The notes beneath the pieces are model-generated. The model made no database searches, was not told where the DNA came from, and was given only the letters and a program-made list of their open reading frames with translations. The position numbers and the translations under genes are program-made. Source: Microbacterium schleiferi (GTDB taxonomy: Bacteria > Actinomycetota > Actinomycetes > Actinomycetales > Microbacteriaceae). From it: a stretch of DNA of 64,000 bases. The DNA lies in assembly GCF_015565955.1 (NCBI RefSeq), contig NZ_CP064760.1, forward strand, positions 2,170,001 through 2,234,000, in the 5' to 3' direction. Position 1 is the stretch's first letter, and the number at the start of each line of letters is the position of its first letter. Shown here piece after piece: positions 10,767 to 51,012 of this stretch.

Positions 10767-12634
10767 TCAACCCTCAGCGTCGACCGGTGCCCACTCCCAG
10801 AAGTTCCAGAAGTAGTCCGGGCTCAGCGGCATGGCCTTCACTCCGGTCACGCGGTCGCTCGAGACGAGCAGACCGGGGAACTGGAAGATCGGGATCGTGA
10901 CGGCATCCGACCAGATACCCATCTCGGCCTCGTTGAGGAGGTCGGTCTGCGTGTCGTAGTCCGAGGTGACGTTGAGCGTCTGCAGTGCAGCCGTGACGTC
11001 CTCGTTGCAGTAGCCGTTGTAGTTTCCACCCTTGGTGTCCGGTGCTGCGAAGTCGTAGCACGCGTAGATCTGGTCCGATCCACCGACGGCGAGGCTGGTC
11101 TGCGACCAGGCGAAGATCACGGCGTCGTGCGGGTTGATCGGGTTGACCGACGGGTCGGTGAACTCCCAGTTCGGCTCGCTCTGGTCGACGAGCTGGAAGC
11201 CAGCCTGCGCGGCCGAAGCTGCGATGAGCTCGAACTCCTGGCCACGACGGACGTTGCCCTCGGGGTACCAGAAGCCGACCTCGACCGGCGTGGTCACACC
11301 GGCGTCGGCGAGGAGCTGCTTGGCGCCCTCGATGTCGACGTCGGCGTAGTCGGCCGAACCGTTGTCGGCGGTGAGGATCGGGTAACGGACCGTGTCAGCC
11401 TCGCTCACGAGGTTCGCGTTGCGAACATCAGCATCGGGGTTGAGCGGCACGATGATCTTGTCGACGATCTCCTGGCGCGGGATCGTCTTCAAGAACGCCT
11501 GGCGGACGGCAAGTGCCGTCGCCTCGTCGCCACCGTAGGTAGCCGGGTCGAACGGACCGCCGTTGTTGACGGTCAGGTCGACGTGCTCGTGCGAGGCCTG
11601 GACACCGGTCTGGACCTCAGCGGTTGCGATGCCCTCGGCAACCTGGAGGATGTCAGCGGTGGGCTGACCCGTCCAGATGTCGAGCTCGCCGGCCTCGAGG
11701 GCCTGCAGCGCCGTGGTGGCGTCGCCGATCGCGCGCACCGTGATGCGCTCGAACTTCGGCGAGGGACCCCACGTGTAGAGGGGTTGGCGACGAGAGTCGT
11801 GTACTGGTCCTCAGCCGTCTCCTCGATCGTGTACGCGCCGCTGGTCAGGGCAGCAGCGGGGCTGTCCGGCAGCGAGGTGTAGGCGTAGGCGTCGCCCCAT
11901 GCGGTGCCGAGCGCGTCGAGGACTGCGTCGTCACCGTTGGTGATGGCATCCACGACCTTCTGCTTGGCGGTCTCGGCGAAGCTCTTGGCGGCCTCGCTGT
12001 ACTTGTCCCAGTCGCCCTGCTCGCCCGAAGCCGAGTAGGTGTCCCAGGCAGCCTGGACGTCGGCGTACTCGTCGGGGAAGGCGAGTGCGTAGGTGCCGTG
12101 TGCCGACACACCGAGCGGGTTGACGAGCTCCCAGTCCACGTACGGCTCGTCGTAGACGAGGGTGATCGTCTTGTCGCCGGTCTCGGGGGTCTGGGTGACG
12201 AGGTTGTAGCCGGTCGTGGCAGCGGGCGAGAACGCGTCGCTGACGTTGCCGGAGAGGGCGGCCCACTCCAGGAGCATGTCGGCCTCGTCGATCGGAACAC
12301 CGTCGGACCATACGGCGTCTGCGGTGATCGTGTACTCGACCGTCAGCGGGTCTTCGCTCACGACTTCGTAGGAACCGAAGTCGGTGTTGCGCACCCACTC
12401 AGGGGTGTTGTTGTAGTAACCGAACGTGGTGTCGGTCATGTACTTGATGTTGCCGTTGGCGGTGTTGTTGCCAGCGGAGCTGTCGTCGTTGAAGTGGAAG
12501 AAGCCTTCGTTGTACGCAACGGTGACTTCGGAGTTCTCCACGACATCCGACTGGTAGGGGTTGCTGCAGCCGGCGAGCACGAGTGCTCCCACTGCAACGA
12601 CGCCTACGCCCGCCGCAAGACGTGCGATCTTCAC
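10767..12634 (-). CDS. Peptide ABC transporter substrate-binding lipoprotein (frameshifted)
   Basis: A family 5 extracellular solute-binding protein of about 622 residues once one frameshift is repaired. The GTG at 12634 follows a canonical AGGAGGAA site. The signal peptide ends in the lipobox LAGC, and the mature part carries 'VEYTITADAVWSDGVPIDEAD', typical of SBP_bac_5. The frame breaks at 11780-11783 (GGGG): after LVANP the read frame gives STRG, whereas one extra base restores LYTWGPSPKFERITVRAIGD and continues to the stop at 10767. It lies upstream of both permeases and captures peptides for them. I regard the break as probably a sequencing error. Confidence 0.85.
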
Positions 12635-12771
12635 ATTTCCTCCTGTGCAAGGGGTTATGTGCCGGGGGCATGATTGACCCCGGCACGGATGGAAAAACCC
12701 TAAGCGCGGGCTGTGAGTTGTTCAAAACCTGAGGCCGAAAAGTTACATACCCTTAACTCGGCGGGAGTTGC

Positions 12772-13611
12772 ATGTGGCAATCTGACAAGGTGCACCCCCG
12801 GAAGCGGCCTCCTGTTGTGAGCGAAGTGCTGAACGTTTCGCGCGTTGAGGGGCAAACACGTACGCGGCTGACGTGGGAGCTGTGGATCGTCCTGGCCATC
12901 ACCGTTGGCCAGTCGGCGCTGTACAGCCTCCTGTCGTTCGTTCGATCGCTCATTCGCGCCGCCGAGCAGAATCAGACCCTCGCACAGCAACAGACCCAGC
13001 TGAACCCGAACCGGGACGCCGAGGCGCTGTGGAACGCGCTCTACCAGTTCCTCAGCATCTTCTTCGGTTTGGCGCTGGTCGCACTCGTGATCTATCTGCT
13101 GTGGGAGCCGGGGTCCAATGCCCTGCGGCGGATCGGCCTCGACTTTTCCCGCTTCGGCGGCGATGTCGGCCGTGCACTGCTGCTCGGCGCCGTGATCGGC
13201 ATCCCCGGTCTTGCTCTGTACGTCATCGGCCGCGCGCTCGGGATCACCCTTCAGGTGAGCGCCTCACCGCTGGATGCCGCGTGGTGGACGGTCCCGCTGC
13301 TGATCCTTGCGGCGCTGCGGGCTGGGCTCACCGAGGAGGTCATCTTCCTCGGATACCTCTTCGACCGCCTCCGCCGGTTCGGCTGGAACTGGTGGGCGAT
13401 CATCCTCACCACGGCAGGCCTGCGCGCGGCGTACCACGCCTACCAGGGCTTCGGAGCGATCGTCGGCAACTTCGCGATGGGCGTCGTCTTCGGCTGGTGC
13501 TACCGCCGATGGGGTCGCGTGATGCCCCTCGTGATCGCCCACACCCTCATCGACATCGTCGCGTTCATCGGCTATCCCCTCGCGGTATCCCTCTTCCCCA
13601 CGGTCTTCTAG
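12772..13611 (+). CDS. CPBP family intramembrane metalloprotease
   Basis: 279 residues with about eight hydrophobic segments. The CPBP/Rce1-type motifs are visible: E188-E189 in 'LTEEVIFLGYLFDRL' (motif 1, with Leu where many members have Arg), H222 in YHAYQG (motif 2) and H257 in 'IAHTLID' (motif 4). A family member would cleave within the membrane or process prenylated or bacteriocin-type substrates; the substrate here is unknown. The first 30 residues are polar and poorly conserved, so an internal GTG around residue 16 may be the real start. It is divergent from the binding-protein gene. Confidence 0.88.
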   Translation: MWQSDKVHPRKRPPVVSEVLNVSRVEGQTRTRLTWELWIVLAITVGQSALYSLLSFVRSLIRAAEQNQTLAQQQTQLNPNRDAEALWNALYQFLSIFFGLALVALVIYLLWEPGSNALRRIGLDFSRFGGDVGRALLLGAVIGIPGLALYVIGRALGITLQVSASPLDAAWWTVPLLILAALRAGLTEEVIFLGYLFDRLRRFGWNWWAIILTTAGLRAAYHAYQGFGAIVGNFAMGVVFGWCYRRWGRVMPLVIAHTLIDIVAFIGYPLAVSLFPTVF

Positions 13612-13627
13612 CCCCCCTGCCCCGCCC

Positions 13628-13702
13628 TGATCCCCGCGAGACACAACCTCGCGCGACGCACGGGGTACGTCCGTCGCGCGAGTGCACGTCTCACGGGGAT
13701 CA
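13628..13702. repeat. Palindromic repeat element, copy 1
   Basis: A 75-base imperfect palindrome. Outer arms TGATCCCCGCGAGAC / GTCTCACGGGGATCA pair with one mismatch, and inner arms CTCGCGCGACG / CGTCGCGCGAG pair perfectly. The central part (ACGGGGTACGT) and the GAGACnnAACCTnGCGCG core resemble the element at 14758-14821. The two copies frame the endonuclease-like gene. This copy may also terminate the CPBP gene, whose stop lies 17 bases upstream. Confidence 0.75.
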
Positions 13703-13809
13703 GGTGGGCCGGGAGCGGGGGTCCTCCACGGGCGGAGGGGCGGGAGGGTTGTGCACCGACAGGGACCGCGACGGGGTATGGGTGGGTGGAGAGCTGCTCA
13801 CCATGAAGG

Positions 13810-14792
13810 ATGCAACCGAGGATCGCGATCTCTCCGAGTCCCGTTCGCCTTCACGTCGCGTCGGATGCCGCGCCGACGACTCGACCGCGTGATAACCGCA
13901 CTCTCGTACGCGTTCGGCACGGCGTATGGGCGGATGCGGCGGCCTGGCGCGCTCTGCCCCCGTGGGATCGCTACCTGGCGCGTGTTCACGCCGTCGCGCT
14001 GCTGCGACCGGATGCCGTGTTCTGCCGCGAGTCCGCCGCTGCCCTATGGGGTCAGCCCATCTTCGGCGAGCCGCGCGACATCCATCTCTTCGATGGCGGG
14101 GCGGCGCGCTCCCACCGCGTGGGGGACGTCGTGAGGCACGCGAGCATCGCGCCGCCCCGCGTCGTCGAGGCTGGTGGGCTTCTGTTGACTGCTCCCGCTG
14201 ATACCGCGGTCGCGCTGATGCGCGCTCTTCGCCCCGCGTGGGGTCTCGCGGCGGTAGACGCCACGATCAGTGAGCGCCAACTCGGTCTCTGCACGATCGC
14301 CGAGGTTCGGGATGCCCTTTCGCTCCAGGTGGATCGCCGCCATCGGCGCCGCTGCGTGTGGGCGCTCGATCACGCAGACCCCCGTTCGGAGAGCGTGGGC
14401 GAGTCAGTGAGCCGCGCGGTGATCAGCTGGCTGGGATTCGAGGAACCCGAGTTGCAGCATCCGTTCCACCTCGAGGGTCACGACGACCGCTGCGACTTCT
14501 TCTGGCCGCGCTCCGGGGTCGCCGGAGAGTCCGACGGGTATGGCAAGTACGCCGCACCCGCCGACCTCATCGCCGAGAAACGCCGCGAAGACCGCCTGCG
14601 CCGACACCTTCGAGGCTTTGCGCGCTGGGACTGGCACGACGCCATGCGGGCCGACCCCTGCGCCGAGCGCTCGAGGCAGCCGGCGTCCGCCGCATCCGCC
14701 CGCCCCAACCCGCCATGCTCGCCACCCTCTCCCCCGGCCCCGCCCGTCCCGGCCACCCCGTGAGACGTAACCTGGCGCGTGAAACGGGGTGA
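13810..14792 (+). CDS. Endonuclease-like protein with N-terminal winged-helix region (frameshifted)
   Basis: About 327 residues if one base is restored. The N-terminal half ('LVRVRHGVWADAAAW', then 'RESAAALWGQPIFG') resembles AbiEi-type winged-helix regions. The C-terminal part ('ELQHPFHLEGHDDRCDFFW', 'GESDGYGKY', 'EKRREDRLRRHLRGFARWDW') has the D...E...K spacing of the DUF559/Vsr-like nuclease fold. The frame breaks in CCCC at 14655-14658: one more C gives DPLRRALEAAGVRRIRPPQP and a stop at 14792 inside the downstream palindrome; as read it stops at 14763. Such genes are common in Microbacteriaceae; their role is unknown. The start is uncertain. Confidence 0.65.
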
Positions 14793-14821
14793 CGTATGGC
14801 GCGCCAGGTTACGTCTCGCGG
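14758..14821. repeat. Palindromic repeat element, copy 2
   Basis: A 64-base palindrome with perfect 18-bp arms, GAGACGTAACCTGGCGCG (14762-14779) and its complement (14800-14817), extended outward with one mismatch, around a 20-base centre containing ACGGGGTGACGT. It resembles the element at 13628-13702 in arm sequence and centre. It covers the last codons and stop of the endonuclease-like gene. Confidence 0.8.
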
Positions 14822-14848
14822 ATTTGGGGGTGGGCGGGGGCGGGGGGG

Positions 14849-17750
<2,902 letters not shown>

Positions 17751-17754
<4 letters not shown>

Positions 17755-18134
17755 GCAGCGCCGCCGGTGAGCGCGACGTACGCGTCACGGTCCAGGAGCG
17801 CGTCGATGTCGGCAGGCGTGACCTTGAGCTTCATGAGCCAGCCGGCACCGAACGGATCGGAATTGACCACGGACGGATCGTCGACGGCCTCGTGATTGAC
17901 GGCGAGCACCTCGCCGTCAACGGGTGCGAACAGCTCACCGACGGACTTCGTCGACTCGATCTCGCCGCAGACCTGGCCGGCCGAGACACCGTCTCCGACG
18001 CCCGGAAGCTCGAGGAAGACGACATCGCCGAGCTTGTCGGCGGCGTAATCGGTGACCCCGATCACGGCTTCATCGCCCTCCAGGCGCAGCCATTCGTGCT
18101 CGGCGGTGTACTTCAAGGTCGTCAGATCGGTCAT
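17751..18134 (-). CDS. gcvH: Glycine cleavage system H protein
   Basis: 127 residues, the usual length. The lipoyl-attachment lysine is K63 in '[15 protein letters not shown]', and the family pattern [18 protein letters not shown] precedes it. GcvH carries the aminomethyl group between GcvP and GcvT on its lipoyl arm. It lies between gcvT and gcvP with 4-base ATGA overlaps on both sides, so the three proteins are translationally coupled. Confidence 0.97.
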
Positions 18135-19366
18135 TTCGTCCTCCGGTAAAAGGGCAGGGTCGTCACGGATGCGGGGATGAGGGTGCCACGAACGTCGATC
18201 GCCAGGGCGGTGCCGGGCTCGGCGAGCGCGGGGTCGACGTAGGCGAGGGCGATGGGATGGCCGAGAGTCGGGCTGAGCGCACCCGAGGTCACCTCCCCGA
18301 CGACCGGCGCACCGCCGGCTGCCTGATCGACGACGGGATACCCGGCGCGTCCGGCGCGACGGCCTTCGGAGACGAGTCCGACGAGCACGCGGCGGTCGGC
18401 ATCCTCAGCCTGAGGCACTGACTTGCCGACGAAGTCGGGCTTGCCGTCGGCAACGCTGCGCGCGAGCCCCGCCTGGGCGGGCGTCGTCTCGAGCGAAAGC
18501 TCGTGGCCGTACAGCGGCATCCCGGCTTCCAGCCGGAGGGTGTCGCGGGCTGCCAGACCGGCCGGGACGAGTCCGTACGGTTCTCCCGCCACCAGCAGGG
18601 CATCCCAGAGGGCTCCGGCCGCACGATGGGGGACGAGCAGTTCGAAGCCGTCCTCCCCGGTGTAGCCCGTGCGGGCGATGAAGAGCGGCTCGCCGGCGAA
18701 GGATCCGGCAGCCCAGGCGTAGTAACCCAGGTCGGCAAGCGCAGGGGAAACGTCGTCGATATCGGATGTCGCCGCCACGATGTCGTGCGCGGCAGGCCCC
18801 TGGACGGCGATCAGCGCCAACTGATCGGTCACGTCCTCGATCTGTGCGGTGTCGGAGATGCCCGGGACGAACAGGAAGGACGCGATCCCGTGGCCGCGCT
18901 CGCCTGCCGCGAGGAAGGATGCCGCGACCGGCGCGCGTGCGGCACGGAGGCGGAAGGCCTCGGCCACGGCATCCCGGTTTCCCGCGTTGGCGATGACGAG
19001 GTAGCGATCCTCGGCGGTGCGGTAGACGATGACGTCATCGACGATGCCGCCGTCCTCGGACAACACGAGCGAGTACTTCGCCTTGCCGACCCGCATACCC
19101 GAGTGATCGCCCGAGAGGGCGTAGTCCAAGAACGCGCCGCTGGGCTCTCCCGTCACCAGGAACTCGGCCATGTGCGAGATGTCGAACAGGCCCGCGGCGT
19201 CGCGCACCGCGTGGTGTTCGGCGAGGTCGGATGCGTAGCGCACGGGCATCAGCCAGCCACCGAAGTCGGTGAACGCAGCACCGAGGGCGACATGTCGATC
19301 GTAGAGCGGCGAGCGTTTCGGCTCGGGTGGAGCCTGCTGCGATTCTGGTGGAGCGGGGTGTGACAT
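18131..19366 (-). CDS. gcvT: Glycine cleavage system T protein (aminomethyltransferase)
   Basis: 411 residues; it releases ammonia and transfers the one-carbon unit to tetrahydrofolate. Family signatures are '[20 protein letters not shown]', '[10 protein letters not shown]' and '[10 protein letters not shown]'. A stretch around residues 155-190 ('[19 protein letters not shown]') is inserted relative to short bacterial GcvT, and an N-terminal Pro/Gln-rich extension precedes the core. First gene of the gcvTHP operon, directly downstream of the glycine riboswitch. GGGAGA before the ATG is the ribosome binding site. Confidence 0.96.
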
Positions 19367-19404
19367 GAGTTCTCCCGGTCGTCGGACGGGGGACGCCGTA
19401 CGAC

Positions 19405-19612
19405 GCCCGTGAACTCCCCCTCTGTCTGTGGCCTGAGAGTTTCACGCGGCATCCAGGTGAACCGGATGCTGTGCTTTCACCGTCGGCGGACGCCACCCGA
19501 TGCGTGGGTGATGACGCTTTCCAGAGTGGCCGGACGTGCGCGGTACGCGGACCTGAGAGATTGGCGGGGAGGCTTGCTCCTTCGGTGCCCGGTGTGACCC
19601 GGGGCTCTCCCG
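19405..19612 (-). promoter_or_regulatory. Tandem glycine riboswitch
   Basis: Two adjacent glycine-aptamer patterns stand upstream of gcvT on the minus strand. Aptamer 1 has GGGAGAG, then ACCGAAGGAGCAA, then CTCTCAGGT, followed by the linker ending CACTCTGGAA. Aptamer 2 has GCCGACGGTGAAAGC, then AACTCTCAGGC and CAGAGGGGGAGTTC. This is the classical cooperative arrangement that activates gcv expression when glycine is high. It explains most of the gap between gcvT and the MarP-like gene. The final G/C-rich stretch before gcvT may form the expression platform. Confidence 0.9.
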
Positions 19613-19687
19613 CACCCGTCATGTGGCCGGATCTTCAGTTGCGCGGCCAGCATATCCCAGCACGCGGTTTCGGCACGGCGACGCGCG

Positions 19688-20872
19688 TCAGGGGGTGCAC
19701 GAACCGGTCGATACCGGCTCGGCGAGCGCGGGCGCCTGCTGCGCGAGAGGTGCGAGCACCCCCGAGGTGACGGCGTAGCCGACATCCGACCCGTCATCGG
19801 CACGGGCGAACACGACGCCCGCCGCCGCGCCGCCCGCGGTGAGCACGGGCCCTCCGGAGTTGCCGGGAGCGACGCGGGCATCCAGCGCGTAGATCTCGCG
19901 GCTCACCCTCGCGTTGTCGTAGATGTCGGGCACCTGCGCGGTTCCGACCGAGCGCACTGACGCCTGCCCCAGCGTGAACGGGCCCCCATAGGGGTAGCCG
20001 GCGACGGCCGCCGTGTCGCCGGCCCGGAGCGTTGCCACGATAGGCAGCGCCGCGGCGTCCTCGGTCTCGACCGCGACGACGGCGAGATCCTGGTCGGGGT
20101 CGAACCAGACGACGCGGCCTGCCTGCGCCATCCGTCCCGGCAGCTCGACCACGATCTGCTCCATGCCGGCGACGACATGCGCGTTCGTCACCACGCGGTC
20201 ATCGGCGATGACGAATCCCGACCCGGTCATGCCACGGGAGCACGCGAACGCAGTTCCGGAGACACGGGCTACCGATTGCGCAGCAGTGCTCAGGGCGGGG
20301 TCATCCAGCGCCACCGCGGGGGCGGTGGGCGCCGTGGCCGGAAGATCCAGCAGCGTGCCCATCCGGGGCAGGGCGTCGACGAAGACCGCCTGCCGCAGCT
20401 GCGCGAGAGCGGCGCTCACGGGCGCGGGGGTCAGGGCGTCGATCGCCGCGAGGACGCGGGACGAGGAGGTCGCGGCAGTGACGACCGGCACCCCCGAGAC
20501 CGCCGCGCTCTGGGCGACCAGCGAGAGCGACAGCGCCGTGGCGACGACGGCGACGACGCCCCCGAGCAGACGGTCGATCACGTGCAGGCGCAGTTTCTCG
20601 GCGCCGCGGCGCAGGGCGCTGCCGATCGCACCCCCGGCGACGGCGCCACCCAGGAGCACGGCAACGACTCCCGCAATGAGCACCGGGCCGCGCCAGTCGG
20701 ACTCGGGCAACAGGGGCGCAACGATCGGCAGGAGCCACCAGACCGCGATGCCACCGACGGCAAGGCCGAGGGCCGATCCGAGGATCGCGAGCACTCCGCT
20801 GCCGAGTCCCCAGGCAAGCGCACCGAGCAGCAGGATCACGACGAGAACGTCGGTGAGGATGCCGAGGACCAC
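19688..20872 (-). CDS. MarP-like membrane-anchored serine protease (CvpA-trypsin)
   Basis: 394 residues. Four N-terminal membrane segments form a CvpA/colicin V production region (1-125), then a trypsin-like domain follows with H232 (TNAHVV), D262 (DQDLAVV) and S339 (GNSGGP). Architecture and length match Rv3671c/MarP of Mycobacterium, a periplasmic protease needed for acid and oxidative stress resistance. Cys211 and Cys392 bracket the protease domain, where MarP has its regulatory disulfide. The GTG at 20872 starts the first helix directly. Confidence 0.9.
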   Translation of the reverse strand: MVLGILTDVLVVILLLGALAWGLGSGVLAILGSALGLAVGGIAVWWLLPIVAPLLPESDWRGPVLIAGVVAVLLGGAVAGGAIGSALRRGAEKLRLHVIDRLLGGVVAVVATALSLSLVAQSAAVSGVPVVTAATSSSRVLAAIDALTPAPVSAALAQLRQAVFVDALPRMGTLLDLPATAPTAPAVALDDPALSTAAQSVARVSGTAFACSRGMTGSGFVIADDRVVTNAHVVAGMEQIVVELPGRMAQAGRVVWFDPDQDLAVVAVETEDAAALPIVATLRAGDTAAVAGYPYGGPFTLGQASVRSVGTAQVPDIYDNARVSREIYALDARVAPGNSGGPVLTAGGAAAGVVFARADDGSDVGYAVTSGVLAPLAQQAPALAEPVSTGSCTP

Positions 20873-20967: not shown

Positions 20968-20978
20968 GTCACTATGAC
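20968..20978 (+). promoter_or_regulatory. Candidate NrtR operator overlapping the start codon
   Basis: The palindrome GTCA-CTA-TGAC spans the ATG of the regulator gene. A CTAA-N7-TTAG inverted repeat lies just upstream (20945-20959), and TAGAGT stands 4 bases before the ATG. Autoregulation of the NAD operon is a plausible reading; which repeat is the operator cannot be decided from one locus. Confidence 0.3.
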
Positions 20979-21758
20979 ACAAACCAGTATCGCTCTCGAT
21001 CCTCACCGCGCAGCATCCACGGATGCCATCCGCGTCGCTGTGTCGACCGTGATTTTCACGGTCCGCCGCGCCCCCGGAGAGTCCTCCGCGCGACTGATGA
21101 TGCCGCTCGTGCGCCGGACTCGCGAACCCTACGAATGCCTCTGGGCGCTTCCCGGCGGCTGGCTCGACGCCGGTGAGGGCCTGGATGCCGCTGCCTCGCG
21201 CACCCTGGCCGAAACAACCGGACTCACGCCGAGCTACCTGGAGCAGCTCTACGCGTTCGGAGATGTCGACCGCTCCCCACCCGGGTCGTGTCGATCGTGT
21301 ACTGGGCGCTGCTTCGCGCTGACGACGTGGATGCCCAGCGGGCGGCGCACGAGGCGGCCGGCGATGCGCCCGAGAACGTCGCTTGGTTCGACGCGAACTC
21401 TCCGGGAGCCCTGGCCTTCGACCACAACGAGATCGTGTCGTACGCCCTGTGGCGGCTGCGCAACAAGGTCGGCTACAGCCGTATCGCCCACGGCCTGCTC
21501 TCCGAGCTGTTCACGTTGGCCGAGCTTCGCGAGGTGTACGAAGCGGTCCTCGATCGGCGCCTCGACCCCGCGAACTTCCGGCGTCAGGTCGAGAACTCCG
21601 GAAACCTCATCCCTACCGACCGGTTCCGCACCGGTAGCCATCGTCCCGCCCGCCTGTACCGCTATAACCAGGATGTCGAACTCGCCGACAGAGGTCCGCT
21701 AAACGCCCCTCGACGCGATGGCACGACGTTGCCCGCCCTCGAATCGAGCACCTCATGA
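20974..21758 (+). CDS. nrtR: NrtR-like Nudix-related regulator of NAD synthesis (frameshifted)
   Basis: About 261 residues after repair: an N-terminal Nudix fold and a C-terminal winged helix ('KVGYSRIAHGLLSELFTLAELREVYEAV', quoted in part). The Nudix box (GWLDAGEGLDAAASRTLAETTG) keeps the first Glu and Arg but has Thr for the catalytic Glu after Arg, as expected of a sensor rather than an enzyme. NrtR proteins repress NAD genes and sense ADP-ribose. The frame breaks at CCCC 21275-21278; one extra C restores 'SPTRVVSIVYWALLRADD'. The stop overlaps the nadA ATG, so it heads the nad operon. Confidence 0.85.
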
Positions 21759-30252: not shown

Positions 30253-30295
30253 CTACCGTGTGGCGTACGAACTTCACGCACCAGGGAGGATCTTC

Positions 30296-30844
30296 ATGTC
30301 GCACCTGACCGGAAAGACTGTCGCGTTTCTCGTTACTGACGGCTTCGAAGACAGCGAACTGACCTCACCCTGGGAAGCAGTGACCTCGCACGGGGCGCAG
30401 GCGCGCCTCGTCTCGCCCGCCGGAGACAGCGTCACAGGCAAGAACGGCCACCACCAGAGCGTGGATGTCGATAGCTCCGTCGCCAACGCCGCCGAGTTCG
30501 ATGCTCTCGTCCTGCCGGGCGGCGTCGTCAACGCCGACCACCTGCGGATGGATGCCGCATCCTGCGGGTTCGCGCGGGACTTCTTCGAGCAGCACAAGCC
30601 CGTCGGCGTGATCTGCCACGGCGCGTGGACGCTCATCGAGGCGAACGTCGTCGACGGTCGCACGCTGACCAGCTACCCGAGTCTTCAAACCGACCTGCGA
30701 AACGCGGGAGCGAACTGGGTTGACGAGGAGGTCGTCGTCGACCAGGGGCTTGTCTCGAGCCGCACTCCCGATGATCTCCCCGCCTTCAACGACAAGCTCG
30801 TGGAGGAGATCGGCGAGGGCCGGCACGAGGGCCAGACAGCCTGA
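30296..30844 (+). CDS. DJ-1/PfpI family protein (type 1 glutamine amidotransferase-like)
   Basis: 182 residues. The nucleophile elbow 'VGVICHGAWTLIEA' has C107 followed by H108, and E18 in 'TDGFEDSEL' is the partner acid, so the PfpI triad is complete. Relatives act as general stress proteins, proteases or deglycases; the activity is disputed within the family. It begins after a strong AGGGAGGA site 6 bases before the ATG, consistent with high expression. It converges with the small gene at 30875. Confidence 0.92.
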   Translation: MSHLTGKTVAFLVTDGFEDSELTSPWEAVTSHGAQARLVSPAGDSVTGKNGHHQSVDVDSSVANAAEFDALVLPGGVVNADHLRMDAASCGFARDFFEQHKPVGVICHGAWTLIEANVVDGRTLTSYPSLQTDLRNAGANWVDEEVVVDQGLVSSRTPDDLPAFNDKLVEEIGEGRHEGQTA

Positions 30845-40929: not shown

Positions 40930-41972
40930 GCGCGCACGCGCCCGCCCCGGTGCTCACTGGCACCCTGTCGCAACTCCTTGGGGAGCGAGAACATCAGATC
41001 CTCTTCGGCGGTGCGCACTTCTTCGACGTCGCGGTAGCCCGCTGCCGCAAGGTCTTCGAGCACCTGCTGAACGAGCACCTCGGGAACTGACGCGCCGCTT
41101 GTCACGCCGACGCTGGCGACGCCTTCGAGCCACTCCTGTCGGATTTCGTCCGCGTAATCGACCCGGTACGCGGCCTTGGCGCCGTATTCGAGCGCCACCT
41201 CAACGAGGCGCACACTGTTGGACGAATTGGCCGACCCGACCACGATGACCAGGTCCGTGCCCTGGGCGACCTTCTTGATCGCTACCTGACGGTTCTGGGT
41301 CGCGTAGCAAATGTCATCCGAGGGCGGATCCTGCAGCTCCGGGAACCGCTCACGCAGCCGCCTGACCGTGTCCATCGTCTCGTCGACCGAGAGCGTCGTC
41401 TGCGAGAGCCACACCACGCGGGACGGGTCCCGCACCTCGACGGTGTCGGCCTCCTCGGGTGAGTTCACGATCGTGATGTGCTCGGGCGCTTCTCCCGCTG
41501 TGCCCTCGACCTCTTCGTGGCCGAGGTGACCGATCAGGAGGATCTCGAACTCGTCGCGCGCGAAGCGCACGGCCTCGCGGTGCACCTTCGTGACCAGAGG
41601 GCAGGTCGCATCGATCGCCTGCAGCTGACGGTCGGCAGCGGACTGCACGACAGCCGGCGAGACGCCGTGCGCGCTGAAGACGACGTGCGCGCCCTCGGGC
41701 ACTTCGTCGACCTCATCGACGAAAATCGCGCCCTTCTGCTCGAGCTCGGTGACGACATGGATGTTGTGAACGATCTGCTTACGCACGTAGACGGGCGCAC
41801 CGAATCGCTCCAGCGCCTTCTCGACCGCGATCACGGCACGATCGACGCCGGCGCAGTATCCCCGGGGCGCGGCAAGCAGCACCCGCTTGGGTCGGTCGAC
41901 CGGGATATCCTGGAGACGCTCACGGCGCCGCGGAACGCGGGGCATGGGCATGTGTACCGCGGGAGTGCTCAT
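40926..41972 (-). CDS. ispH: 4-hydroxy-3-methylbut-2-enyl diphosphate reductase
   Basis: 348 residues; last step of the MEP isoprenoid pathway, yielding IPP and DMAPP. The three cluster cysteines lie in '[13 protein letters not shown]', '[14 protein letters not shown]' and '[13 protein letters not shown]', and the catalytic Glu region '[11 protein letters not shown]' is present. The ATG at 41972 follows TAGAAT by 7 nt, and the N-terminal 30 residues before the core are basic and variable. It is divergent from xseA. The isoprenyl transferase at 51 kb uses its product. Confidence 0.97.
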
Positions 41973-41979
41973 CGGTCCG

Positions 41980-41985
41980 ATTCTA
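41980..41985 (-). promoter_or_regulatory. -10 element for leaderless ispH
   Basis: TAGAAT on the minus strand, 7 nt before the ATG at 41972. Confidence 0.5.
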
Positions 41986-42027
41986 CGGGCGCGGCCTGAG
42001 CGCGGGCCGGGCAAGCCGAAAGGGATC

Positions 42028-43323
42028 ATGACGACATTCCAGCCCGAGCGCGTTCCCGGACAGGCACCGCCCCCGGATTCCGTGCATCCTCGGGACTCCA
42101 GCGCCCAGTCCCCGACCTCGGTCGCTCGCCTCGGCGACACGATCCGCGGCTTCGTCGAGACGTGGGGGTCGGTGTGGGTCGAGGGAGAGATCACGTCGTG
42201 GAACCTTCGCGGCGGCAATGTCTTCGGGCGGATCAAGGACCTCGCGACGGACGCGACGATCTCGATCCGGATCTGGTCGAGCACGCGGCAACGCCTCCCC
42301 GCTGACCTGGCCGTCGGCGATCGGGTCGTCGCGTGCGTCAAAGCCGACTACTTCACGCGCACGGGGGATTTCAGTTTCGCGGTCTCGGCGATGCGGCACG
42401 TGGGGCTGGGCGACCAGCTCGAACGCCTCGAACGCCTCCGGACACAACTGCGCGGGGAAGGGCTGTTCGATTCCGCGCGTAAGAAACCGCTCCCCTTCCT
42501 CCCCCACCTCATCGGCCTGATCACGGGTGAGAAGTCGGATGCCGAGAAGGACGTGCACCGCAACGCCGAGCTCCGTTGGCCGCGCGTGCGATTCCGCACG
42601 CAGTACGCGGCGGTGCAGGGCGATCGCTGCGTTCCCGAGACGATCGCCGCTCTTACAGCCCTGGATGCCGACCCCGAGGTGGACGTCATCATCATCGCTC
42701 GCGGTGGCGGCGACCCGCAGACACTGCTGGGGTTCAGCGACGAGCGGCTCGTCCGCGCTGTCGCCGCGGCATCCACACCTGTCGTCAGCGCGATCGGGCA
42801 CGAGAACGATCACCCGATCCTCGATGACGTGGCTGATCTGCGCGCATCCACACCCACGGATGCTGCCAAGCGCGTCGTTCCCGACGTCGCCGAGCAGCGG
42901 GCGCTCGTGTCCCAGTTGCTCAGCCGTGCCCGCACGCGCGTGACACAACGGCTCGCGCACGACATCTCCCAGGTCGAGCAGCTGCGCTCCCGGCCGGTCT
43001 TGCGCAATCCCGAGCACGCCGTGGCTCAGCGCGCGCAGCACATCGAGCTGCTGGTCGCGCGAGGACGGGATCACGCGGAACGCGCCGTGGCGGCGCAGAC
43101 CCGACGCACCGCCGAGTTGCGGGCTGCGGTTCGCGCGCTGTCCCCGGCCTCGACACTGGCCCGGGGGTATGCGATCGCGCATGTCGGCGGCGGTGTGATC
43201 GTCCGGGATGCCGAGCAGGCGCCCGCCGGCACAGAGGTCACCGTCACCGTGGGGCGAGGCTCCTTCGGGGCCCGTTCCGCAGGCGAGGTTGACGAGACCA
43301 GCACCCCCGATCGGCCGCTCTAG
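42028..43323 (+). CDS. xseA: Exodeoxyribonuclease VII large subunit
   Basis: 431 residues. The N-terminal OB-fold tRNA_anti-like domain ('[20 protein letters not shown]') binds single-stranded DNA, and the catalytic Exonuc_VII_L domain includes '[18 protein letters not shown]', '[19 protein letters not shown]' and '[19 protein letters not shown]'. A long coiled coil ends in '[15 protein letters not shown]'. It degrades single-stranded DNA in repair together with XseB. The ATG at 42028 follows AAAGGGA; the longer frame overlaps ispH. Confidence 0.96.
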
Positions 43324-43326
43324 GAT
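43321..43326 (+). promoter_or_regulatory. -10 element for leaderless xseB, overlapping xseA stop
   Basis: TAGGAT lies 6 nt before the xseB ATG. Its TAG is the xseA stop codon, so the small subunit may have its own leaderless transcript. Confidence 0.45.
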
Positions 43327-43332
43327 GGAAAC

Positions 43333-43581
43333 ATGACCGCCGCGAACCCGCCTGCCCCGGGTGACGTCGACGGCCTGTCGTTCGAGCAGGCTCGCGACGA
43401 GCTCGTTCGCGTCGTCGCGGAGCTGGAACAGGGAGCACCGACCCTCGAGGAGTCGCTGCGGCTGTGGGAGCGCGGCGAGGCGCTCGCGGCGCGATGCGAG
43501 CAGTGGCTCGTCGGCGCGAAAGAGCGGCTGGATGCGGCACGCGCTTCATCGACGCCCGCCACGGGCGGGGATGGATCGTAA
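43333..43581 (+). CDS. xseB: Exodeoxyribonuclease VII small subunit
   Basis: 82 residues, typical length. It is one helical hairpin: 'LSFEQARDELVRVVAELEQG', then 'TLEESLRLWERGEALAARCE', with the Pfam Exonuc_VII_S pattern LEESLxLxExGxxLxxxC. Several XseB copies bind each XseA. It lies 9 bases after xseA, and its TAA stop shares one base with the ATG of the next gene. Confidence 0.96.
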   Translation: MTAANPPAPGDVDGLSFEQARDELVRVVAELEQGAPTLEESLRLWERGEALAARCEQWLVGAKERLDAARASSTPATGGDGS

Positions 43582-44225
43582 TGGCGCAGCGGGAACGGAT
43601 CGTCGCCGAGCTTGGTCGACCAGAAACTCCTGAGGAAACGGCGGCGCGCAAGGCTGAGTCGTCCCGGATCTATCGCTCGAGTCAGACCTTCCGCAATCTG
43701 ATCGCTGCCCTGGTGATCACTCTCGGCATCGTCGCGATTGTCATCTTCGCCGTCCCCCGCGGCGAACCAGCGGAGAGGGAGCCGATCGACGTCGCCGCCG
43801 TTGCCGAGGAGGTCTCGCTCACCCTCGACGGATCAACCGCGATCGTCCCCGTCGTCCCCGATACGTGGCTGGTCAACGCGGCCACCGTCGCCGGCGACGA
43901 CCCGCGCACCTGGACGGTCCTGTACGTCCCCGAGGGTGATGCCGGATTCGTTCGCGTTGCCCAGGGCTTCGGTGCCGACCCAACATGGCCCACGCGCGAG
44001 CTCTCGGGGGCGGATACCGCAGGAACCACCGTCATCGACGGTGTCGAATGGACCGAATACGACATCCCCGACCCTGCTCGTGCCGGCAACATCTCGGCGG
44101 CTCTCAGCACGACCGCCGGCCCGGACACGATTCTCGTCTACGGTGCGACGACACCGGACGCCCTGCGCGTGATCGCGGCGAGCCTGGCCGATCAGATCAT
44201 CGCTGCCGACGAGGAGAGTTCATGA
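43581..44225 (+). CDS. DUF4245 membrane-anchored protein
   Basis: 214 residues. A polar N-terminus with 'RSSQTFRNLIAALVITLGIV' marks one membrane helix, followed by an extracytoplasmic domain of the DUF4245 family ('DTWLVNAATVAGDDPRTWTV', 'DGVEWTEYDIPDP'). The family is limited to actinobacteria and has no known biochemical role. It is regularly found between xseAB and a fructose-bisphosphatase or fumarase in related genomes, as it is here beside carbonic anhydrase and fumC. Starts on the last base of xseB. Confidence 0.88.
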   Translation: MAQRERIVAELGRPETPEETAARKAESSRIYRSSQTFRNLIAALVITLGIVAIVIFAVPRGEPAEREPIDVAAVAEEVSLTLDGSTAIVPVVPDTWLVNAATVAGDDPRTWTVLYVPEGDAGFVRVAQGFGADPTWPTRELSGADTAGTTVIDGVEWTEYDIPDPARAGNISAALSTTAGPDTILVYGATTPDALRVIAASLADQIIAADEESS

Positions 44226-44857
44226 TGCCGACCACGACGCCCGCCGAGGTGTGGGGCGACATGCGCGAGGGAAACGCCCGGTTCGTCTCCGGCGACCCCT
44301 CGCATCCGCGACAGGACGTGGAGCGTCGCCACGAACTGGCGGGGGGCCAGCGCCCGCGCGCCGCGCTCTTCGGCTGCGCGGACTCCCGACTTGCCGCCGA
44401 GATCATCTTCGACCAGGGGCTCGGTGATCTGTTCGTCGTCCGAAACGCCGGTCAGGTCATCTCCGACTCCGTCGTCGGCAGCCTCGAGTACGCCGTCGCG
44501 GTGCTCGAGGTCCCCCTGATCGTCATCCTCGGGCACGACGAATGCGGTGCCGTCGCCGCCGCGATCGAATCGACGACCCTGGATGCTCCCGCACTCCCCC
44601 CACACATTTGGCGCCAGATCGCCCCCATCGTCCCGGCGGTCAGGCGCGTCATCCGAGCCTCCGACGGCGGCCCCGTCGACGCTGAGGAAGTCGGCCGCGA
44701 GCACTTGCGCGACACCGTCGCCGAGCTCCTCCACTCTTCCGAACTGATCAGCGACGCCGTCGCCGCCGGAACGCTCGCGATCGTCGGAGCGAACTACCGC
44801 CTGTCCGAGGGCACGGCCATCCCCGATGTCATCGTGGGCACCGCCGAGGACTCCTGA
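44222..44857 (+). CDS. Beta-class carbonic anhydrase
   Basis: 211 residues; interconverts CO2 and bicarbonate with zinc. The zinc ligands are C52 in 'FGCADSRLAAE', H105 and C108 in 'ILGHDECGAVAA', and the Asp-Arg dyad D54/R56 is intact, so it is probably active. The ATG overlaps the stop of the DUF4245 gene. No membrane or signal segment. It likely supplies bicarbonate for carboxylases in central metabolism; this role is inferred. Confidence 0.94.
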   Translation: MMPTTTPAEVWGDMREGNARFVSGDPSHPRQDVERRHELAGGQRPRAALFGCADSRLAAEIIFDQGLGDLFVVRNAGQVISDSVVGSLEYAVAVLEVPLIVILGHDECGAVAAAIESTTLDAPALPPHIWRQIAPIVPAVRRVIRASDGGPVDAEEVGREHLRDTVAELLHSSELISDAVAAGTLAIVGANYRLSEGTAIPDVIVGTAEDS

Positions 44858-44905
44858 TGACGACGGGCAGCTGCCCGAGCCCAACCGAAGCGAAGGAACG
44901 AGGAC

Positions 44906-46300
44906 GTGACTGACATCGAGTACCGCATCGAACACGACACGATGGGCGAGGTGCGGGTTCCCAAGAACGCGCTGTATGCCGCACAAACCCAGCGGGCCGT
45001 CGAGAACTTCCCCATCTCGGGTGATGCGCTCGACCCCGCCCAGATCGTGGCGCTGGCGCGTATCAAGAAGGCCGCCGCACTGGCCAACCGGGACCTGGGC
45101 ACCCTCGACCCGCAGATCGCTGGAGCCATCGCCGCTGCCGCCGACGAGATCATCGACGGCGCTCACGCCGACCAGTTCCCGATCGACGTGTACCAGACCG
45201 GCAGCGGGACCTCGTCGAACATGAACATGAACGAGGTGCTGGCAACCCTCGCGACGCGCAGCCTCGGTCAGACCGTGCATCCGAACGATCACGTCAACGC
45301 GTCCCAGTCCTCCAACGACGTGTTCCCGACCTCGGTGCACGTCGCCGTGACGCAGGAACTGATCGATGACCTCATCCCGGCGCTCGACCACCTCGCGGTC
45401 GCCCTGGAAGAGAAGGCCGAGCTCTGGCAGAGCGTTGTGAAGTCGGGCAGGACGCACCTCATGGATGCCACCCCTGTCACCCTCGGCCAGGAGTTCGGCG
45501 GCTACGCTCGCCAGATCCGACTCGGCATCGAACGCGTCCAGGCCGTCATCCCCCATGTCTCCGAGGTGCCCCTGGGCGGAACGGCCGTCGGCACGGGCAT
45601 CAATACCCCCCTCGGCTTCCCGCAGAAGGTCCTGGAGATCCTGGTCTCGGAGACGGAGCTGCCGATCACCGAGGCCAAGGACCACTTCGAGGCGCAGGCA
45701 AACCGCGACGCTCTCGTCGAGGCATCCGGTGCACTGCGCACGATCGCGGTCTCGCTCACGAAGATCAACAACGACCTGCGCTGGATGGGATCGGGACCGA
45801 ACACGGGCCTTGCCGAGCTGCGCATCCCCGACCTTCAGCCCGGCTCGTCGATCATGCCCGGCAAGGTGAACCCGGTCGTGCCCGAAGCAACCCTCATGGT
45901 GTGCGCGCGCATCATCGGCAACGACGCGACGATCGCCTGGGCCGGAGCCTCGGGCGCGTTCGAGCTGAACGTCGCGATCCCCGTCATGGGTACAGCGCTC
46001 TTGGAGTCGATCCGGCTCCTGGCCAACACCATGCGTGTCCTGGCCGACAAGACGATCGTCGGCCTGGAAGCCAACGTCGAGCGGGCCACGGCCTTCGCGG
46101 GAATGTCGCCGTCGATCGTGACCCCCTTGAACAAGCTCATCGGCTACGAAGCGGCAGCTAAGATCGCCAAGCACGCGGTGGCCGAGGGAGTCACGATTCG
46201 TGAAGCCGTCATCTCACTCGGCTATGTCGACCGCGGCGAGCTGACCCTCGAGCAGCTCGACGAGAAGCTCGATCTGCTGTCGATGACCCACCCGGGGTAG
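44906..46300 (+). CDS. fumC: Class II fumarate hydratase
   Basis: 464 residues; hydrates fumarate to L-malate in the TCA cycle. The fumarase/aspartase signature '[18 protein letters not shown]' carries the catalytic serine loop, with '[16 protein letters not shown]' and '[20 protein letters not shown]' (substrate-binding SGRTH and the general-base His in TPVTLG region). The GTG at 44906 lies after GGAACGAGGA. Class II (oxygen-stable, no iron-sulfur cluster) suits an aerobe. Confidence 0.97.
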
Positions 46301-46334
46301 TCCGCCATGGATGCGCCGGGTTCGCGCTGCGGGC

Positions 46335-46340
46335 GATAAT
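46335..46340 (+). promoter_or_regulatory. -10 element for leaderless histidine kinase gene
   Basis: GATAAT lies 6 nt before the ATG at 46347. It favours this start over the in-frame ATG 12 codons upstream, which lies too close to the fumC stop. Confidence 0.5.
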
Positions 46341-46346
46341 CACCCC

Positions 46347-47443
46347 ATGACACGGTCCCAGCGGCCGCATTCCGCTCGGCGTCGCATCGTCACGGGGGCG
46401 GCGCTGGCGTGTGCGTTCGCGCTCGCGCTCGTCGGAGGCGTGACGTTCACGACGCAGGCTGTCGCGCTGTGGCGCGACGGTGCGCCGCTGGATGGCCTGG
46501 TGCTTCCGATGATCGTCTTCGGCGTGGCATCGCTCGTCGCCGTCGCCCTCGTGGTGCTCGTCGGATGGTTCGTCACCGGTGCGGCGCTTCGCTCGATCGC
46601 GCAGGTGCGGGCAGCCGCCGACAGCATGACCCTCGCCGATCTCAGCCGTCGCCTTCCGGGGGACGGGGGCGAGGGCATCGCCGACCTGTCGCAGAGCGTG
46701 AACTCGATGCTCGATCGTCTCGAGGGATCGGTCGACTCGCAGCGGCAGCTGCTGGATGACGTGCGCCACGAACTCAAGACGCCGATCACCATCGTGCGCG
46801 GGCATCTCGAGATCATGGACGCCTCGGATCGGGCCGAGGTCGATGCCACCCGCGCGATCGGCATCGCGGAACTCGACCGGCTCTCTCGGCTGGTCGAAGA
46901 CATCGATCTGCTGGCCGCGGCGGAAACCGACACCTACGAGCGCGATGAGATCGAGCTCGCTGCGCTCACGGCGCGGATGGCAGACATGGTGGCCGTCATC
47001 CCGGGACACAGCTGGCGCGTCACCGAGCGGGCGACGGGACGGATGATGGGCGACGGCGACCGTCTCCTGCAGGCGTGGCTGCAACTGGCCGACAACGCGT
47101 CGAAGTACTCCCCCGATGCGAGTCCGATCGAGGTCGGCAGCGCGTCAGATGCGGTCGAAGTTCGCCTCTGGGTACGCGATCACGGACCCGGTGTTCCGCC
47201 CGCGATGCGCCATCGCATCTTCCGCCGCTTCGACCGCGCGGGACGGCGCCGTAGTGTGGGAGGCTCAGGGTTGGGACTGGCGATTGTTGATGCCATCGCG
47301 AAAGGCCACGGTGGCCGATGCGAGGTGACCGATACCCCCGGGGGCGGGGCGACTTTCACCATCCACGTACCGCACACCAGCGGTGCGTCCTACCCGGCGC
47401 CGGTGCGCGCCGATGACGTGATCCATCAGGGGGAAAGCGGTGA
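46347..47443 (+). CDS. Sensor histidine kinase (3' end frameshifted)
   Basis: About 366 residues. Two membrane helices (13-38 and 52-80) flank a very short outer loop, then a HAMP domain ('AADSMTLADLSRRLPGD'), the dimerisation helix with H141 (DDVRHELKTPIT) and the ATPase domain (N box 'LADNASKYSPDA', 'DHGPGVPP', 'GGSGLGLAIV'). As read, the frame runs about 1 kb past the regulator start. One extra G in GGGGG at 47429-47433 would end the protein at TGA 47441-47443, a GTGA overlap with the regulator. The signal is unknown. Confidence 0.88.
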
Positions 47444-48096
47444 CGAGGATCCTCATCGCAGAAGACGAGCCGCAGATATCGGCGTTCGTGGAGCGGGGGC
47501 TGCGCGTGGCGGGCTACGAGACCGTGGTCGTCGACGACGGTCCGCCGGCTCTCGAGCTCCTCCGAGGCGGGGCGATCGACCTCGCCCTGCTCGACATCGG
47601 TCTGCCGACTCTCGACGGGCTCGAGGTGCTGCGCCAGATCCGCCGCGAGGGCCGCAACGTGCCGATCATCATGCTCACCGCCCGCACCAGCACACGGGAT
47701 ACCGTCGAGGGTCTGGAGTCGGGCGCCAGCGACTACATCCGCAAGCCGTTCACGTTCGAGGAACTCCTCGCACGTGTTCGCTCGCGACTGCGCGAGGTCC
47801 CCGCGGACGCGGGAACGACGATCGTCCACGGGGAGGTCTCCCTGGACCTGTTGTCGCGGCGGGCCCTCGTCGCGGGGCGCGAAGTCGAACTGTCAGCTCG
47901 GGAGTTTGCGCTCGCCGAGCAGTTCCTGCGAAGCCCGGGAACGGTCCTTTCTCGCGAGCAGCTGCTCAGCCGCGTCTGGGAGATGGACTTCGATCCCGGA
48001 TCCAACGTCGTCGACGTGTACGTGCGCTACCTGCGGGGAAAGCTCGGAGCGCACCACATCGCCACCGTGCGGGGCGCCGGCTATCGCTGGGAGTGA
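47440..48096 (+). CDS. OmpR-family response regulator
   Basis: 218 residues. The receiver domain has acidic pocket E8-D9, phospho-acceptor D52 (LALLDIGLPTLDG), LTAR and K101 region 'YIRKPFTFEELLARV'. The C-terminal winged helix is of the Trans_reg_C type ('LSAREFALAEQFLRSPGTVL', 'VDVYVRYLRGKL', 'TVRGAGYRWE'). Starts with GTG at 47440, coupled to the kinase gene. It is probably phosphorylated by that kinase and binds DNA; target genes are not evident in the window. Confidence 0.95.
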   Translation: MTRILIAEDEPQISAFVERGLRVAGYETVVVDDGPPALELLRGGAIDLALLDIGLPTLDGLEVLRQIRREGRNVPIIMLTARTSTRDTVEGLESGASDYIRKPFTFEELLARVRSRLREVPADAGTTIVHGEVSLDLLSRRALVAGREVELSAREFALAEQFLRSPGTVLSREQLLSRVWEMDFDPGSNVVDVYVRYLRGKLGAHHIATVRGAGYRWE

Positions 48097-48127
48097 CGCG
48101 GCTGACGCTCGGTGGGCGGGCAAGAGA

Positions 48128-48161
48128 ATGCCCCCGGCGTCTGGGGTGTCGCCGGGGGCAT
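48128..48161. terminator. Bidirectional terminator between regulator and phoH
   Basis: A perfect 12-bp stem, ATGCCCCCGGCG and its complement, around a 10-base loop, 31 bases after the regulator stop. The gene on the other strand also ends towards it. Confidence 0.75.
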
Positions 48162-48331
48162 GGGCCGGTTATTGGGGGTTTCACCGACCAGGGGGTCTCG
48201 CGATCTGGGGGGCTCGCGGAACCCGGTGCACCCATGGTCGCAGACACCGGGTCACCGCAGACCCCCCGCTCGATGAGACTCTTCTCATGGTTCCGTGAGG
48301 ATCAGCTCGGAGAGAGGCCGCCTCGGCCCGA

Positions 48332-49696
48332 TCAGGACAGCTCGCCCGACTCCAGGAGGTCGGTGACAAGCGCAGCGATCGCCGAGCGCTCGGACCGCAC
48401 GAGCGTGACATGCCCGAAGAGGTCCTGGCCCTTGAGGGTCTCGATGACCGAGGCGACACCGTCGTGACGTCCCACCCGAAGGTTGTCCCGCTGGCCGACA
48501 TCGTGGGTGAGGACAACGCGCGAGTTCTGTCCGATCCGGCTGAGCACCGTGAGCAGGACATTGCGCTCCAGAGACTGGGCTTCGTCGACGATCACGAACG
48601 CGTCGTGCAGTGAGCGCCCCCGAATGTGCGTCAGCGGAAGCACCTCCAGCAGGCCTCGTTCGACGACTTCTTCCAGCACGTTCCCGGACACGACCGACCC
48701 GAGCGTGTCGAAAACTGCCTGACCCCAGGGGTTCATCTTCTCGGCCTGGTCACCCGGCAGGTAGCCGAGCTCTTGACCGCCGACTGCGAACAGCGGACGG
48801 AACACGATGATCTTGCGCTGCTGCTGCCGCTCGAGCACCGCCTCCAGCGCCGCGCACAGAGCAAGAGCCGACTTTCCGGTGCCGGCCCGTCCGCCGAGCG
48901 ACACGATGCCGACCTCTGGGTCGAGAAGAAGGTCGATCGCGACGCGCTGCTCGGCTGAGCGCCCGTGCAGACCGAAAACTTCACGGTCGCCGCGAACAAG
49001 CCGGAAGCTCCCGTCGCCGGTGACACGCCCGAGTCCCGAACCGCGCTCGGAGTGGATGATGAGACCGGTGTTCACGGGCAGACCGGTCACCTGGTCGCTG
49101 GTAGCGACCTCGCTCTCGTAGAGATCGCTGAGCTCGTCACCGGAGATGTCGATCGTGGCGATGCCCGTCCACCCGGAGTCGATTGCCTGTTCGGCCAGGT
49201 ACTCCTCGGCGGAGATCCCGAGCGACGCCGCTTTGACCCGCATCGGCAGGTCCTTGGAGACGACCGTGACCTCCTGGCCGTCGGAAGCGAGGTTCATGGC
49301 CACCGCCAGGATGCGGCTGTCGTTGTCGCCCAGACGCATCCCCGAGGGCAGCGCATCCGGGTTGGTGTTGTTCAGTTCGACGCGGAGCGTCCCTCCGGCA
49401 CCGACGGGCACCGGGAAGTCGAGGCGACCGTGCTCGACTCGCAGCTCGTCGAGGTGACGCAGCGCCTGCCGGGCGAAGTACCCGATCTCGGGGTCGTGAC
49501 GCTTGCCCTCGAGTTCGGTGATCACCACGACCGGCACCACGACGTTGTGCTCGGCGAATCGGAAGAACGCGCGCGGATCGCTCAGCAGCACCGATGTGTC
49601 GAGCACGTAGGTGCGAAGCGTCTGATCCTGCTCGGCATCCTCGATCCGGTTGTCCTGGTGAACCCGGTCCTGTGCCTGTGCTGCCCGTGTGGTCAC
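48332..49696 (-). CDS. PIN-PhoH fusion ATPase/ribonuclease (PhoH2 type)
   Basis: 454 residues. An N-terminal PIN nuclease domain has D33 in '[12 protein letters not shown]', '[10 protein letters not shown]', '[13 protein letters not shown]' and '[11 protein letters not shown]' as acidic sites. A PhoH ATPase domain follows, with GRAGTGKS (Walker A, around residue 275), '[20 protein letters not shown]' (Walker B) and '[12 protein letters not shown]'. Mycobacterial PhoH2 of the same architecture is an RNA-unwinding ribonuclease toxin paired with PhoAT. No antitoxin-sized gene is seen just upstream here, so stand-alone action is likely. GTG start at 49696. Confidence 0.94.
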
Positions 49697-49780
49697 AACC
49701 CACTCCCGCCCCGGGTGGTAATTCCCGGTACCCAGCGAGTCGACCAGGGGTCACGAGTCGCGATCCTGACGGCCGACCCG

Positions 49781-49799
49781 GTCGGGCGCCTTGCCCGAC
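49781..49799 (-). terminator. Hairpin after the aminotransferase gene
   Basis: GTCGGGC and GCCCGAC (7 bp) around GCCTT, about 84 bases past the stop codon and before the phoH start. The rest of the 186-base space shows no gene. Confidence 0.45.
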
Positions 49800-49882
49800 G
49801 AGTTGAACGTACGACGGCGAGCCGATGCCGCGGGCGGCGACACGCTGTCGACACCGTTACATCGAGGTAAATTTCTCGGGCC

Positions 49883-51012
49883 CTACCAGGTGCGGGATGC
49901 CGCGTAGGCCGAGAGTGCGGAGGCGAACAGCGACAGCGATTCGTCGCCGGTACCTGCGTGGGCCGAGACACGGATCGTGCCGCCCCGAGGGGTGATGGTC
50001 ACTCCCGCGTTGGCCAGCGCCGCCGCGAGGGGACCGGCATCCTGCGGCTGGGGAGCCAGGGTCACGATCCCCGCACGACGCTCGGGCTCTCGCGGCGTGA
50101 TCACGGGGATGGCGTTCTCGTCGGCGATCTCGATCACGCGGGTCGCCCGCGCCTCGACGGCCGCGGCGATCGTGGCCACACCGACATCGTGGATCTCGTG
50201 GAGGGCACTTCCCAGGCGCGCCGCAGCGAGCGAATCGGCCTTCGAGACGATGAACGCCCGAGCATCCGGCGATGGCTCGGGCACCGCATCCACGGGCAGC
50301 CCGTCGGCAACTCCGGCGTAGCCGGAGAGCACGGGGCCAGCCGATCGACGGCGCGCTGACTGTAGCTTGCGACCCCGGTGCCACGTCCAGCACGAAGCCA
50401 CTTGTATCCGTTCGCGCAGACGACGTCAGCGACGCCGTAGTCGGCATCCACGACACCGAGGCCTTGGATCGCGTCGACGATGAGCAGGCGATCCCCGATC
50501 ACGTCGCGGAGGGCTCCCAGGTCGGCGCGGTATCCGGTGCGGAAGTCCACGAGGCTCACCGCGACGGCGGTGACCTCATCGGTGAGGGCGTCGCGCACGG
50601 CATCCGGCGTCATGAAGCCGTGCTCGGGTTCGAGCCATGCCGCACGGAGAGTGCCCAGCGCAGCCTCGGCACGCGCGGCGGCGATCGTCAGAGCGGGATA
50701 CTCGGCGCGGGAGAGCAGGAGGGTGCCGCTGAGTCCATAGATCGCCTGCTGCAGACCGTGGCTCGTCGAGGGCTGGATCACGATCTGCTCGGCAGGGACA
50801 CCGAGCACGGATGCTGCGTGAGTGCGAGACTGGTCGACGTGTTCGTTGACCAGGTCGACGCTCGAACGGCGCCCCGTCCCGAGAAGCTCGGCATCGGCGT
50901 GGACCTCGCTGCGGACGACGGGCGAGAGCGGACCGAACGCCGCCCAGTCCAGATAGCCGGGCTCGGAGTCGAAGGACTCGATGTAGGCCGTGATGTCACC
51001 CGTCACGGTCAC
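49883..51012 (-). CDS. Class V aminotransferase-like PLP protein (frameshifted)
   Basis: About 376 residues after repair. The isc/csd-like class V fold is shown by 'VIQPSTSHGLQQAIYGLSGT', the Asp and Gln in 'LLIVDAIQGLGVVDADYG', and the PLP lysine in 'DVVCANGYKWLRAGRGTG'. The frame breaks in GGGG at 50333-50336: after DRLAP the read frame gives CSPATPE, whereas one extra base gives VLSGYAGVADGLPVDA and continues to the stop at 49883. The product may be a kynureninase/isopenicillin epimerase-like enzyme; the substrate is unknown. It lies 44 bases after the isoprenyl transferase gene. Confidence 0.83.

Follow-up and report, generated by a model that had tools for sequence, protein, structure and literature searches.

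One-Base Deficits at G/C Runs in a Single-Contig Microbacterium Genome: Probable Consensus Errors Rather than Broken Genes

Introduction

Are genes that lose their reading frame at short runs of G or C broken in the bacterium, or only in the record of its genome? This question is raised by a stretch of 64,000 nucleotides of Microbacterium schleiferi DNA (hereafter, the window), which comprises bases 2,170,001–2,234,000 of a genome assembled into one contig (3,296,665 bases). An earlier note, made from the sequence alone, had listed six genes in this window that each lose the frame at a G or C run, and had proposed a systematic under-call of homopolymers in the assembly. The genome has a G+C content of 68%, and long A/T runs are few. 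Its completeness is 95.31% despite the single contig, compared to at least 99% in 14 of the 16 same-genus genomes searched, the remaining two consisting of 120 and 280 contigs.

As a reference we used Microbacterium schleiferi FXH-192, the closest named relative by GcvP protein (91% protein identity; entries for this genome or a very similar one may have been outside the search). When reversed, the FXH-192 contig is collinear with the window and about 85% identical to it, and its name states node length and coverage in the style of a short-read assembler. Positions preceded by G000 follow the numbering of the window's own genome contig. A plasmid search with one 501-base piece gave no match, and among the literature matches listed for M. 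schleiferi there was no title on this genome.

Results

Six Genes in the Window Are One Base Short at or Beside G/C Runs

Reading the window at all six coordinates confirmed that the runs lie where the earlier note had placed them. Comparison with FXH-192 by blastn revealed an uncompensated one-base gap in the window at all six sites, which bears out the claim that each gene is one base short. That the missing base belongs to the run itself held for three sites (all runs are given as read on the plus strand), where the FXH-192 run is exactly one base longer: CCCC at 15313–15316 (FXH-192, CCCCC), CCCC at 21275–21278 (likewise CCCCC), and GGGGG at 47429–47433 (GGGGGG), about 5 codons upstream of the kinase stop. 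This part of the claim could not be pinned down for GGGG at 11780–11783 (FXH-192, GCGGG), CCCC at 14655–14658 (GAGCCCC), and GGGG at 50333–50336 (CCGGGG, where the missing base may be a C beside the run). FXH-192 has another base beside the run at these three sites, and the lost base could therefore be that of the run or its neighbor; here, the run-length statistics described below would favor the run.

The binding protein gene (10770..12634, minus strand), split between two frames, encodes an ABC transporter solute-binding protein of family 5, with an SBP_bac_5 match on the FXH-192 copy (E 2.4e-33) and tblastn pieces that are 98% and 96% identical. The second gene (13810..14789, plus strand; about 320 amino acids, two frames) acquires, as read, a different tail ending at 14763. 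It had been named endonuclease-like, a name that we could not support: the FXH-192 copy is without a Pfam or NCBIfam match at E 1e-3, and only a weak AbiEi match was obtained (E 0.0049). The third gene is gcvP (14855..17754, minus strand), encoding the aminomethyl-transferring glycine dehydrogenase in two frames (TIGR00461 on the FXH-192 copy); it is the single copy found in the genome, as two abutting pieces at one place only. Two tandem glycine riboswitch aptamers (19415–19622, minus strand; 66.8 and 36.6 bits) are located upstream of the glycine cleavage genes leading to gcvP. An NrtR-type Nudix repressor follows in two frames (20974..21758, plus strand), with NrtR_WHD and NUDIX matches on the FXH-192 copy and pieces that are both 91% identical. 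A 718-codon ORF (46311..48467, plus strand) contains the histidine kinase, which misses its natural stop and runs on in the wrong frame through the response regulator; the regulator itself (47440..48096, plus strand; Response_reg and Trans_reg_C) is intact. Since domain matches in the FXH-192 kinase (377 residues) extend no further than residue 356, the break spares the catalytic part and replaces only the tail. The sixth gene encodes a class V aminotransferase in two frames (49886..51012, minus strand; Aminotran_5 on the FXH-192 copy, E 7.1e-13; pieces 87% and 93% identical).

Scanning the window against 58 FXH-192 genes revealed one more break flanked on either side by conserved protein, which was absent from the earlier list. 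It affects dapC, encoding succinyldiaminopimelate transaminase, whose N-terminal part occupies the left edge (1..329, minus strand) and whose frame breaks at CCCC G000 2170000–2170003, a run starting one base before the window. Frame changes at 30261, 39179, and 39273 (the last a strict break, as defined below, with a gap of two) were set aside because they lie upstream of likely start codons. The gene open at about 30,290–30,560, which may encode a PfpI/DJ-1 protein, appears truncated in FXH-192, where the ORF has 118 codons and unrelated sequence at its end.

More Distant Relatives Remain in a Single Frame

We compared the intact FXH-192 proteins with loci L002–L080 and L085–L143, counting loci with a hit of ≥ 40% identity and leaving out L114, which is the window's own genome. 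A site was counted as crossed if the best alignment kept a single frame for at least 50 residues past it in both directions. A 12-residue margin proved too lenient, since a wrong frame can resemble the right one for some 20 residues, and the L114 aminotransferase itself passes it. The earlier note had stated that in five cases conserved family sequence resumes directly after the repair, and relatives indeed stay in one frame at five sites (all but the kinase). A single frame across the site was found for the binding protein in 8 of 8 loci, for gcvP in 79 of 79, for nrtR in 53 of 53, and for the aminotransferase in 10 of 10. In the endonuclease-like protein, the site lies 41 residues from the protein end in a variable region; 10 of 13 alignments passed the 12-residue margin and 1 of 13 a 35-residue margin. 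When the tails of these 10 relatives were scored against the three frames of the window, the shifted frame was best in all 10, as it was for the FXH-192 tail (135 vs. 29). The kinase site is 5 codons from the end, and none of 17 loci crossed it even at the 12-residue margin. In all 12 loci read (L085–L095 and FXH-192, L144), the kinase stop overlaps the regulator start, in agreement with the view that the added base restores a natural stop.

One-Base Deficits Recur Along the Contig

To be called strict, a break had to have on each side at least 8 aligned codons, ≥ 70% identical residues, no stop, and changes mainly at the third codon position. Four of the six sites (11780, 15313, 21275, and 50333) are strict breaks, with changes mostly at third positions on both sides. 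Site 14655 fails on the third-position rule, and 47429 is too close to the gene end for the test to reach it. Relaxed constraint downstream of the lesion, as expected of true pseudogene decay, was not seen at the four strict sites.

We applied this test against FXH-192 to 308 kb of the same contig, i.e., 228 kb around the window, 400,001–440,000, and 1,200,001–1,240,000 (206,420, 37,301, and 23,614 bases aligned, 267 kb in total). Among 224 FXH-192 genes (249,615 aligned coding nucleotides), 29 strict single-base breaks were detected, comprising 28 deficits in 23 genes and 1 surplus. The deficits are spread over the assembly regardless of gene function, with 23 in the 228 kb region and 4 and 1 in the other two. 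The sole surplus (G000 401796) lies near the beginning of an ORF, at a distance of 9 codons. Three strict breaks involved more than one base: two of −2, one of which precedes a start codon, and an insertion of +1457. Of the 28 deficits, 23 touch a G/C run of at least four in this genome; such runs, together with the bases next to them, make up about 5% of the sequence. One deficit (G000 2141649) does not lie at a run. For 9 of the 28 events the same run is one base longer in FXH-192, and for 19 the sequence differs there. The broken genes include dapC, dapD, and dapE, as well as pth, which is interrupted mid-gene and of which no other copy was found in the genome. With 90% of the genome taken as coding, these numbers extrapolate to about 330 strict coding breaks genome-wide.

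Two observations lie beyond the window. At G000 2132806, a C run lacking one base joins a crtI-family gene to the next gene, so that annotation would show a false fusion protein. About 250 bases past the right window edge (G000 2234249), a 1,457-base insertion, presumably an IS256-type transposase, splits a gene that is whole in FXH-192.

A simple six-frame ORF comparison had given 27 breaks in each direction. It was rejected, since shadow frames and mirrored breaks had contaminated the reverse count, in favor of the strict test, which requires conserved protein and changes at third positions on either side of a break. Run in reverse (own gene intact, FXH-192 shifted), the strict test returned two breaks of a single base, each within the 228 kb region, and one of −292 in the third region. 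Of the two, G000 2132806 is the crtI-family site already described, viewed from the other side, and G000 2169055 is 11 codons from the beginning of an ORF. A looser list for the 228 kb region held 38 clean single-base breaks (32 deficits and 6 surpluses), from which the strict test retained 23 deficits and no surplus. This list includes a TTT-to-TT change as well as an AA-to-A change whose place, ahead of glmU, is doubtful. The glmU ORF holds three looser breaks. Two of them (G000 2272226 and 2272282) precede the glmU domain, where the corresponding piece of the window's genome contains a stop, so that more than one gene may be involved. An early frame classifier assigned deficits near G000 2132807 and 2151391 to FXH-192, which was contradicted by other comparisons, and these assignments were dropped.

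For control, 21 disjoint pairs of related genomes (80–93% identity; assembly methods mixed and mostly not known) were scanned in both directions, the 42 loci being drawn from the 68 of 79 loci L002–L080 that exceed 20 kb. Only 2 strict single-base breaks (one deficit and one surplus) were found in 726,662 coding nucleotides, besides breaks of −41, −2, 29, and −2. The comparison of 28 deficits in 249,615 nucleotides with 2 single-base breaks in 726,662 gave a Fisher p-value of 6e-15, with nucleotides treated as trials.

The G/C Shortfall Rises with Run Length

Runs were counted where three flanking bases on each side are identical, and run length was taken from FXH-192. The proportion of G/C runs that are one base shorter here rises with run length, from 1/1415 for runs of three to 2/276 for four, 8/64 for five, and 2/6 for six. 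In total, 13 such runs are one base shorter and 3 are one base longer, all of the latter being runs of three, while 274 conserved G/C runs of four are equal in length in both genomes. The corresponding control shortfalls, with directions pooled, were 8/5002 (three), 0/871 (four), 4/225 (five), and 1/11 (six). Shorter A/T runs amounted to 1/140 (three), 0/9 (four), and 0/2 (five). The earlier note had emphasized one sign and one base class. The sign is upheld by 28 deficits among 29 strict single-base breaks, whereas the preference for G/C partly reflects the base composition and the small number of long A/T runs.

Discussion

Our data make it very probable that the six frame breaks stem from errors in the assembly consensus, one base having been omitted from or next to a G/C run. 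A systematic homopolymer under-call, as suggested earlier, is supported by the single sign, the dependence on run length, the spread over three regions, the breakage of needed genes, the low completeness of a one-contig genome, and the near absence of such breaks in the controls. Genes of the dapC, dapD, dapE, pth, and gcvP type are normally needed by the cell. The source is a Microbacterium closely related to M. schleiferi, and its genome was probably put together from long reads with too little polishing; the consensus would drop one base in or beside G/C runs, and the genes are expected to be intact in the organism. The pattern itself is shown by the comparisons; its placement in the sequencing data or their consensus is inferred, as is the type of sequencing. 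The biology is almost certainly ordinary, and the broken genes an artifact of the record rather than gene loss by the bacterium.

The same breaks could in principle be real mutations, arisen in a high-slippage lineage (e.g., one with a mismatch-repair defect) that lost one base in many runs and now carries true pseudogenes. Real slippage would likewise increase with run length. However, it would have to break dapC, dapD, dapE, pth, and gcvP together, and no second copy was found for pth or gcvP, the two genes searched. Slippage should also lengthen runs, but 13 shorter G/C runs stand against 3 longer ones, and 28 strict deficits against 1 surplus. Protein conservation moreover persists on both sides of the strict breaks, although the strict test demands this. 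We therefore regard real mutation as highly improbable.

Even less credence can be given to programmed frameshifting or transcript slippage that restores the frame at the runs. All six sites do carry G/C runs four or five bases long, but the same genes are unshifted in relatives, the 274 conserved G/C runs of four show no difference in length between the two genomes, and neither the genes nor the positions of the sites within them are related. Pseudogenes exist in any genome, yet isolated ordinary pseudogenes at the background rate are an equally remote explanation, given a break rate about 40 times that of the controls. Equally improbable is a living Microbacterium lineage with hundreds of real one-base G/C contractions, some in essential genes, compensated by widespread frameshifting.

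If the breaks are consensus errors, gene losses, pseudogene counts, and pathway gaps (lysine/DAP synthesis, glycine cleavage, and pth) read from this genome would be false. Caution is advisable for single-contig genomes with completeness below expectation, and the present case offers a small worked example of how such errors can be detected with one relative and control pairs.

The phenomenon is already known, as excerpts of two publications (PMC12007338 and PMC6325685) report errors of this kind in bacterial genomes assembled from long reads. According to the excerpts on Kastor, long-read errors are mainly short indels at homopolymers (PMC12007338); in Kastor's older-chemistry assembly, most indels were false deletions, and such errors inflate the number of pseudogenes and depress completeness (PMC12007338). 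The excerpt of the other publication reports indels over-represented at homopolymers in assemblies that include high-G+C Pseudonocardia (PMC6325685). The breaks described here resemble the errors outlined in these excerpts (PMC12007338 and PMC6325685) in their one-base deletions at runs, the many frameshifted genes, and a completeness below expectation. They differ from the cases presented there in that they were deduced from relatives alone, and in that G/C runs dominate, as the base composition predicts.
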